64,000 bases of DNA from an uncultured Pseudothermotoga sp. (GTDB taxonomy: Bacteria; Thermotogota; Thermotogae; Thermotogales; DSM-5069): NCBI GenBank assembly GCA_937995655.1, contig CALKJI010000010.1:1-64000 (forward strand), in the 5' to 3' direction. This document shows positions 52,540 through 53,986 of the stretch, one piece after another (position 1 is the stretch's first letter; each line of letters begins with the position of its first letter). The notes below the pieces were generated by a model, which saw only the letters and a list, made by a program, of their open reading frames with translations, had not been told where the DNA came from and did not search any database. Made by a program: the position numbers and the translations under genes.

Positions 52540-52911
52540 CTAATCAACGAATATACGGACTGTTGTTCCGTCGGAGCTAGTGATATTTATGATATCGCCA
52601 TCCATCTGGGACAGACTTTTCATGGCTTCATCGAGCTGGTTTGACAGGAAGTTCAAGTCGACATTTGGAAGTTTTTCTTGAAGAACAGGTAAAGAGAGTT
52701 TGAGCATCTGTGCCAATCCAACCGGGATTTTCACGTCTACCTTGTCTCCATCGTTACTTCTGACTTGAATGTAGAACATTCTTTTCTTCTCGGTTGACGA
52801 TTGTTTAGGTTCGGAGAAAAAGCCCATCGTTTCAAGAAGTTCAAGTGCTTGTTCTGGGGTAAGTTTTCGATCCTTCACCAAGTTCATAATCCTAAAAAGC
52901 TCATCTCTCAT
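52540..52911 (-). CDS. SHOCT-like domain protein
   Basis: MRDELFRIMNLVKDRKLTPEQALELLETM; C-terminal MDGDIINITSSDGTTVRIFVD. Confidence 0.7.
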   Translation of the reverse strand: MRDELFRIMNLVKDRKLTPEQALELLETMGFFSEPKQSSTEKKRMFYIQVRSNDGDKVDVKIPVGLAQMLKLSLPVLQEKLPNVDLNFLSNQLDEAMKSLSQMDGDIINITSSDGTTVRIFVD

Positions 52912-53279
52912 GATCTAACCTCCTTCTCACCTTTGATAAGGGATATAGCGGTTGAAAAATCGATTTGGTTGGTTTCGAGTTTTTCCAAGATGATCGAATA
53001 GTTGGTTTCTTCAGTTGAATAATAACCAAGGTTTCTCAGGACTCTACTGAAATATGAGTGAACTGTAGGGTAAGAAACGCCCAATTTCTCTGCAACCTTT
53101 GTGAGATTTCCTCTGTTCTTCAAATACGTTCTAAGAAATTGTAAGTCTTCTTGTGAAAGGTTGTTGAATTCATTTGGCACAAAGTTCCCTTCGATTTTTG
53201 TATTGCAGTTTTTGCACCTGTATGAAGTTATTATCACTTCGCCGTTGCAAACTGGACATCTTGAAAAAAACGGATTCAT
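52908..53279 (-). CDS. DUF2089-type zinc-ribbon/HTH protein
   Basis: CPVCNGEVIITSYRCKNCNTKIEG; LTKVAEKLGVSYPTVHSYFSRVLRNLGY. Confidence 0.85.
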   Translation of the reverse strand: MNPFFSRCPVCNGEVIITSYRCKNCNTKIEGNFVPNEFNNLSQEDLQFLRTYLKNRGNLTKVAEKLGVSYPTVHSYFSRVLRNLGYYSTEETNYSIILEKLETNQIDFSTAISLIKGEKEVRS

Positions 53280-53288
53280 TATTCCACC

Positions 53289-53804
53289 TCACACAATACC
53301 TATTCGAACCATCGTACCCTTGCTCTCAACAGTTATGAAGTCGCCAGAAAAACTCATTAATTCATCAATACAAGCTACAAAAACTTCTTGAATGATACTG
53401 AGGTATTTTTCGTCCACTGGAACCTTATCCTTGAAGAATTTTGAGAAAAAGGGTGAAAGTGATTTTAAAAAAGGTTTTAATACGATGACGGCTGAAAAGG
53501 GTATAGCAACTCTCACATGTGTAGAATCGTTATTATCATCGACAAGGATCAGAAATTTTTTTCCCAAAGGCGGGGTTATAAGATCTTGGATCCATTTGAG
53601 ATCTTCTGAGTCCAGTTTATCTCCCAATCTATCCTTTATGGTTTCTCTGAGTTGCCTTGTCCTTTTGATACTTCTGGCGTAATGTGAAAATATTTCAAAG
53701 ATTATATAAACTCCAAACGCAATGAATATGACTCCAAAGAAAATTTTCGCTCCAAAGAAGATTAGACAAATACCTGCCAAAACAAGGACTAATGCTAGGT
53801 ACAT
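53289..53804 (-). CDS. Membrane protein with C-terminal domain shared with the 52540-52911 gene
   Basis: Two N-terminal TMs; C-terminal FSGDFITVESKGTMVRIGIV matches MDGDIINITSSDGTTVRIFVD. Confidence 0.7.
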   Translation of the reverse strand: MYLALVLVLAGICLIFFGAKIFFGVIFIAFGVYIIFEIFSHYARSIKRTRQLRETIKDRLGDKLDSEDLKWIQDLITPPLGKKFLILVDDNNDSTHVRVAIPFSAVIVLKPFLKSLSPFFSKFFKDKVPVDEKYLSIIQEVFVACIDELMSFSGDFITVESKGTMVRIGIV

Positions 53805-53986
53805 TCACTCACCTCCAAAAAATGAAAGGTACACTTTATATTTTATCAAGTTTTATCTTACAATAATTGAAAATAGGGAATCTATGTCGTCGATAATGTA
53901 ATCATAAAGTTTCAATATCTTAACTTAGTAGATGATACAATATCAAAAGCGTGAAATCTATAGAAGCACTTGAAAAATGTGAAAAA

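Follow-up and report, generated by a model that had tools for sequence, protein, structure and literature searches.

The locus described here raises the question of which signal a DUF2089 regulator answers to, and what two small proteins encoded on either side of it contribute to that answer. Three genes, A, B and C, make up one minus-strand operon at positions 52540-53804 of the window, i.e. the whole 64,000-nucleotide stretch of uncultured Pseudothermotoga sp. DNA that was analysed. Gene A (53289..53804, minus strand), the first gene of the operon and conserved beside C, encodes a membrane-anchored protein of 171 aa; gene B (52908..53279, minus strand) a DUF2089 zinc-ribbon/HTH regulator of 123 aa; and gene C (52540..52911, minus strand) a soluble 123-aa protein consisting of a SHOCT-like segment and a domain shared with A. 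The operon was taken from the ORF list and the coordinates of all three ORFs were confirmed on the minus strand; the ORF calls are mechanical and some start positions are uncertain. A gap of 9 nt separates A from B, and B and C overlap by 4 nt (52908-52911, ATGA). The cassette is flanked by a divergent rplU preceding A and a co-directional valS after C, and the rplU-valS interval contains only these three genes. A defence-system library compared with the cassette gave nothing relevant.

Gene B scored 52.6 bits against the Pfam model Zn_ribbon_DUF2089 (PF22747; cut-off 27.6) and 67.4 bits against DUF2089-HTH (PF09862; cut-off 33.4), with the zinc ribbon (CPVC...CKNC) at residues 8-38 (53166..53258, minus strand) and the helix-turn-helix at residues 41-86 (53022..53159, minus strand). 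Both the ORF coordinates and the Pfam matches agree with the initial annotation, which had placed a DUF2089 zinc-ribbon/HTH gene in the middle with a 4-nt overlap with the third gene. A SHOCT-like tail of DUF2089 proteins is described in PMC11237479, and the C-terminal tail of B (SIILEKLETNQIDFSTAISLIKG; 52929..52997, minus strand) gave a modest hhalign match to the N-terminus of C (probability 64, score 21.7 vs a shuffled maximum of 17.9); PF22746 is absent among the 25 Pfam families listed for B. In C, residues 2-29 (52825..52908, minus strand) correspond to a SHOCT-like helical pair of the LiaX/YvlB N-terminal type, which scored 28.3 bits against SHOCT-like_DUF2089-C (PF22746; cut-off 27), and this model was matched by 12/12 members of the C alignment A2. 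The LiaX model NF038025 was matched by 6/13 members of the C family with a best E of 4e-6, under the model cut-off, and the match of the C protein of the window covers the N-terminal 40 residues only (15.7 bits vs a cut-off of 350), i.e. it is not a full-length match.

The remaining part of C, residues 42-123 (52543..52788, minus strand), and residues 81-171 of A (53289..53564, minus strand) represent the two copies of the shared domain. A two-sequence BLASTP between A and C is not significant (E=0.23), and profiles were therefore needed for the comparison. Using hhalign, the A domain matched the C domain with probability 97.5, E=6e-12 and score 63.2, while 400 column-shuffled C profiles against A gave a mean of 11.1 (sd 2.3) with a maximum of 21.4; a control with the profile reversed scored 18.7. 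A larger comparison of 18 A domains with 65 C domains from many phyla gave probability 98 and E=1.3e-13. Whole-genome searches with C-trained profiles recovered the A proteins over the domain columns (E 2e-6 to 4e-4). In the opposite direction, a scan of 390 genomes with the A-domain profile recovered A from 18 genomes and, in 4 of these, the partner C as well; its only other matches were both spurious, one containing internal stops and the other lying in a 76-aa frame. The separate AlphaFold2 models of A and C, both of low confidence (58 and 67, respectively), have the order strand-strand-helices-strand-strand in common; for the C domain the elements are E45-51, E57-63, H64-80, H86-99, E105-111 and E117-122 (pLDDT about 67), and the shared domain is thus modelled as beta-beta-alpha-beta-beta. 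Convergence, in which short strands and amphipathic helices would make unrelated sequences look alike, fits the pairwise BLASTP value, but it is very improbable given profile scores far beyond the column-shuffled controls, reciprocal genome-wide profile searches that each retrieve the partner, and the similar order of secondary-structure elements in the two models. Judged by these profile-profile alignments, the homology of the two C-termini, as first noted for the first and third genes in the initial annotation, holds. No model in Pfam or NCBIfam covers the domain. The A model being too poor for the purpose, the fold search was done with the C model (PDB and BFVD); this and a PDB sequence search gave nothing convincing, and no solved structure matches.

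Residues 1-45 of A (53670..53804, minus strand) are predicted to form a two-helix membrane hairpin running into a positive stretch, as hydropathy, charge and the AlphaFold2 model indicate: hydropathy exceeds 2 across residues 1-40, the net charge at residues 41-60, right behind the hairpin, is +4, and the model places helices at H2-17 and H21-60 with low confidence. There is no significant Pfam match to A, and a LiaI/LiaF-type membrane segment matched one A member only, at E 5.8. According to the positive-inside rule, a positively charged flank of a membrane segment marks the cytosolic side, and the strongly positive stretch after the hairpin therefore suggests that the domain copy of A is on the cytosolic side. 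A signal sequence is absent from C, which is likewise predicted to reside in the cytosol. The earlier view of one domain present as a membrane copy and a soluble copy is supported. Its designation as a ligand-binding domain is not, since the fold and sequence searches revealed no ligand-bearing relative, structural or otherwise. Because the positive-inside pattern and the missing signal sequence put both copies in the cytosol, a role in interaction appears more likely than the sensing of a ligand in the envelope.

The profile search located the 18 A-bearing genomes in two Thermotogota families, and in 13 of them B is present between A and C: four genomes of the same genus as that of the window, two further genera of its family, and seven genomes of one genus in another Thermotogota family carry A-B-C. 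The conserved clustering anticipated in the initial annotation was found, with A beside C in 18/18 genomes and DUF2089 adjoining most C loci elsewhere. In genus g3 (five species, L120-L124) there is no DUF2089 gene between A and C, the rplU-valS position is unchanged, and C comes directly after A, the two ORFs as called overlapping by up to 10 nt or lying up to 16 nt apart. Since the five g3 genomes constitute one group inside the family in a tree based on A and C, the data are most simply understood as a single loss of B, in g3. This genus provides a clean natural deletion of the DUF2089 gene with both neighbours retained, and its genomes also retain a Toastrack-type DUF2089. Members of other Thermotogota families have the orders DUF2089-C-Toastrack (L051, L131, L132 and L135) or DUF2089-Toastrack...C (L042 and L079).

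Phylogenetically, B belongs to a separate cassette-type DUF2089 clade (support 99/98) that includes one solitary member, L041, and the Toastrack-linked DUF2089 proteins of the same family form another clade (support 100/99). Both kinds are present in the genome of the window, where at the second locus (G000:C5, L002) DUF2089 is followed by a small membrane protein and then by a DUF4097/Toastrack protein ending in a SHOCT-like segment, an arrangement of the published type. Its regulator, a paralogue in the other clade, has a SHOCT-like tail, as B probably does, and as in the cassette the partner carries a SHOCT-like segment; here, however, that partner is a Toastrack protein and the segment is C-terminal. 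The solitary L041 (G053:C218) lacks A and C and overlaps a FliJ-like ORF, which suggests recruitment of a cassette-type DUF2089 into another operon. In one family of the order (L054-L066), DUF2089 is followed by SHOCT-like and bactofilin-type proteins; the Bactofilin Pfam match in L054 (L054:3230-4132:-) scored 33.4 bits (cut-off 27.9), and the polymer-forming bactofilin is a third kind of DUF2089 partner domain, occupying the slot of Toastrack. DUF2089 family proteins of 89-98 aa have also been annotated beside small membrane proteins in leaderless bacteriocin clusters (PMC7332713, PMC10707071), and these may be membrane-damage regulators as well.

Outside Thermotogota the C profile matched in 52 genomes, and in 33 of the 39 loci read from other phyla a DUF2089 gene is present on the same strand near the C-type gene. 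DUF2089 and C are directly adjacent in e.g. L163, L169, L194 and L196; a Toastrack-like protein intervenes in L164, L171 and L180 (DUF2089-Toastrack-like-(membrane protein)-C); and L178 has a second soluble copy (DUF2089-C-C'). In L177 and L189 the gene directly after DUF2089 encodes a single protein with LiaF-TM, SHOCT-like and shared domains (Pfam models above cut-off), and the alignment of the A profile with the LiaF-TM fusion protein covers the hairpin and continues into the first part of the domain (E=2.6e-8). Only in A and in these two fusions is the shared domain confirmed to carry a membrane hairpin. The Bacillota survey comprised two plasmid lineages (L148 and L149), which have the order DUF2089 - C - small protein; the small protein on the Paraclostridium plasmid is a stand-alone copy of the domain that resembles A more closely than C (score 34.7 vs a shuffled maximum of 18.6), and the 93-aa protein downstream in Niallia, considered as a further copy, was by itself not above the shuffled profiles. 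A plasmid search with the C protein of the window as query gave no match. DUF2089 regulators range from Thermotogota to Bacillota, and in several phyla the shared domain is found beside them in soluble, stand-alone and membrane-anchored forms. The 143-aa membrane proteins of L164, L171 and L180 and the small membrane proteins of L186, L187 and L193 resemble A by eye, but hhalign gave no support for either group as A homologues. The latter (L186:3393-3632:-, L187:2741-3001:+ and L193:2785-3045:+) are of 79-86 aa and lie between DUF2089 and C, and their strand-like ending recalls the end of the shared domain, the profiles being thin. The SHOCT-like segment that B and C probably have in common, the loss of B with A and C kept, and the spread of C outside Thermotogota are additions to the initial annotation.

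The association of DUF2089 with Toastrack in a PSP-like context has been published (Ravi et al. 2024, PMC11237479), and that article proposes that Toastrack assembles signalling complexes below the membrane and that SHOCT-like domains anchor proteins to the inner membrane face. Toastrack-type domains are described, in PMC11237479 and PMC12791056, as the core of the membrane protein LiaF and of the SHOCT-headed LiaX/YvlB, and in the model of PMC10269926 a LiaX-LiaF complex keeps the pathway off. The cassette resembles the DUF2089-Toastrack neighbourhood of PMC11237479, for which a role in a membrane-linked stress response is proposed, in having a zinc ribbon-HTH regulator with a probable SHOCT-like tail, a SHOCT-like-headed partner and a membrane partner. 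It differs in having neither DUF4097, DUF2807 nor LiaF_C, and instead an alpha/beta domain common to the membrane and soluble proteins. Pfam gave no Toastrack (DUF4097) match to A, B or C, and because this defining domain was looked for and is absent, the cassette is, on its domain content, not a member of the Toastrack operons; the main text of PMC11237479 contains neither a Toastrack-free form with this second domain nor Thermotogota. As in the Lia system (LiaF, LiaG and LiaX with LiaFSR), one domain type is common to a membrane protein and a SHOCT/LiaX-headed protein that presumably cooperate upstream of a transcription factor, whereas the shared domain of the cassette is not Toastrack, all its parts are much smaller, and its output is a one-gene DUF2089 regulator with the LiaRS two-component system absent from the operon. 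With the PSP-like operons YvlABCD and lmo2484-2487 it has in common the YvlB/LiaX-type N-terminus and the association with membrane stress, but it has no PspC, holin-like or Toastrack protein. The cassette looks like a slimmed-down relative of membrane-stress operons in which Toastrack has been swapped for another domain.

We consider it about an even chance (probability roughly 0.5) that A-B-C constitutes a Toastrack-free, Lia/PSP-like sub-membrane switch that responds to the state of the membrane, with C as adaptor between A and B. C has both halves of a possible bridge because it has one module in common with A (strong match) and one with the tail of B (modest match). An adaptor role of C is the simplest mechanism that accounts for all of these features. 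The two-helix anchor of A would present its domain at the cytosolic face, the domain of the soluble C would pair with that of A, and the SHOCT-like helices of C would pair with the SHOCT-like tail of B. At a resting membrane A would recruit C, and via C also B, to the membrane, or hold B in one state; on disturbance the A-C contact would be altered, B would be freed or activated, and it would then act on the promoter of the cassette itself. The homologies, the conservation of the gene sets, the swapping of domains and the anchored fusion are observations, whereas the cytosolic placement, the pairing of A with C and of C with B, the signal from the membrane and the autoregulation are predictions. 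In favour of such a switch, A and C are never apart, also after the loss of B in one genus, and the LiaF-TM fusions join the membrane hairpin, the SHOCT-like segment and the shared domain after DUF2089. Against it stand the low AlphaFold2 confidence, the lack of a matching solved structure, the modest SHOCT match between B and C, the restriction of the confirmed hairpin to A and the two fusions, and the dispensability of B in five species, which implies that some A-C function is independent of their own B; the Toastrack-type DUF2089 remaining in g3 could substitute for B. The proposal of an envelope-stress sensor in the initial annotation fared unevenly: stress finds backing in the company that DUF2089 keeps (Toastrack/DUF4097 neighbours, LiaF-type segments and LiaX-type N-termini, each belonging to membrane-stress systems already known or proposed), so that the cassette may be linked to envelope or membrane stress, only by association, but two copies that both look cytosolic make the sensing of an envelope ligand less likely.

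The retention of A and C without B, with C directly after A and B lost once, also fits a different arrangement in which the functional unit consists of A and C alone, as a hetero-oligomer at the membrane that is structural or protective in role. B would then do no more than set their dose, in response to some other cue such as zinc or redox state perceived via the ribbon. A and C are indeed the co-varying pair, and DUF2089 also adjoins unrelated genes such as the FliJ-like ORF after L041 and the leaderless bacteriocin genes. We nevertheless regard this as rather unlikely, as the SHOCT-like segment of C resembles that of DUF2089 proteins and C adjoins DUF2089 in most phyla, suggesting more than control of dose. 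Still less probable is that A and C both bind a small molecule or lipid through the shared domain, one at the membrane and the other in solution, with C competing with A: the presence of the domain twice within the operon, the second soluble copy in L178 and the stand-alone copy in L149 would suit this, but there is no fold match to any ligand-binding family, polar or charged residues form no conserved motif suggestive of a pocket, and the few invariant C positions across phyla (M1, L25 and P63) look structural.

Upstream of A, a candidate -35/spacer element, ACTTGATAAAATATAAA (53835..53851, minus strand), is conserved in both Thermotogota families, its counterpart in the distant family f9 being ACTTGACAAAATATAAA; as an operator it is a possible lead only. 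At ≤1 mismatch there is no second match to ACTTGATAAAATATAAA in the genome. An operator palindrome was looked for upstream of A and not found, the conserved element being promoter-like only. The promoters of Toastrack-type DUF2089 genes (L043, L045, L049, L087 and L088) have, by eye, a conserved palindrome-like stretch of the AACTAAAATATTTTTAGTT type around -10, and this is a candidate DUF2089 operator.

With three genes in about 1.3 kb, and both partners from one domain family, the cassette is near the smallest DUF2089 form, and it makes the question of what DUF2089 responds to directly testable with three small thermophile proteins. In addition, the cassette delineates a widespread domain absent from Pfam and NCBIfam, and suggests that another domain can take the place of Toastrack in membrane-stress systems. 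It is possible, at somewhat less than even odds, that this alpha/beta interaction domain without a family name acts as an alternative to Toastrack, and that its soluble copy, as an adaptor, links the membrane copy with a one-component regulator through the pairing of like domains; if true, this would represent a second, structurally independent route to a Lia-type membrane sensor.
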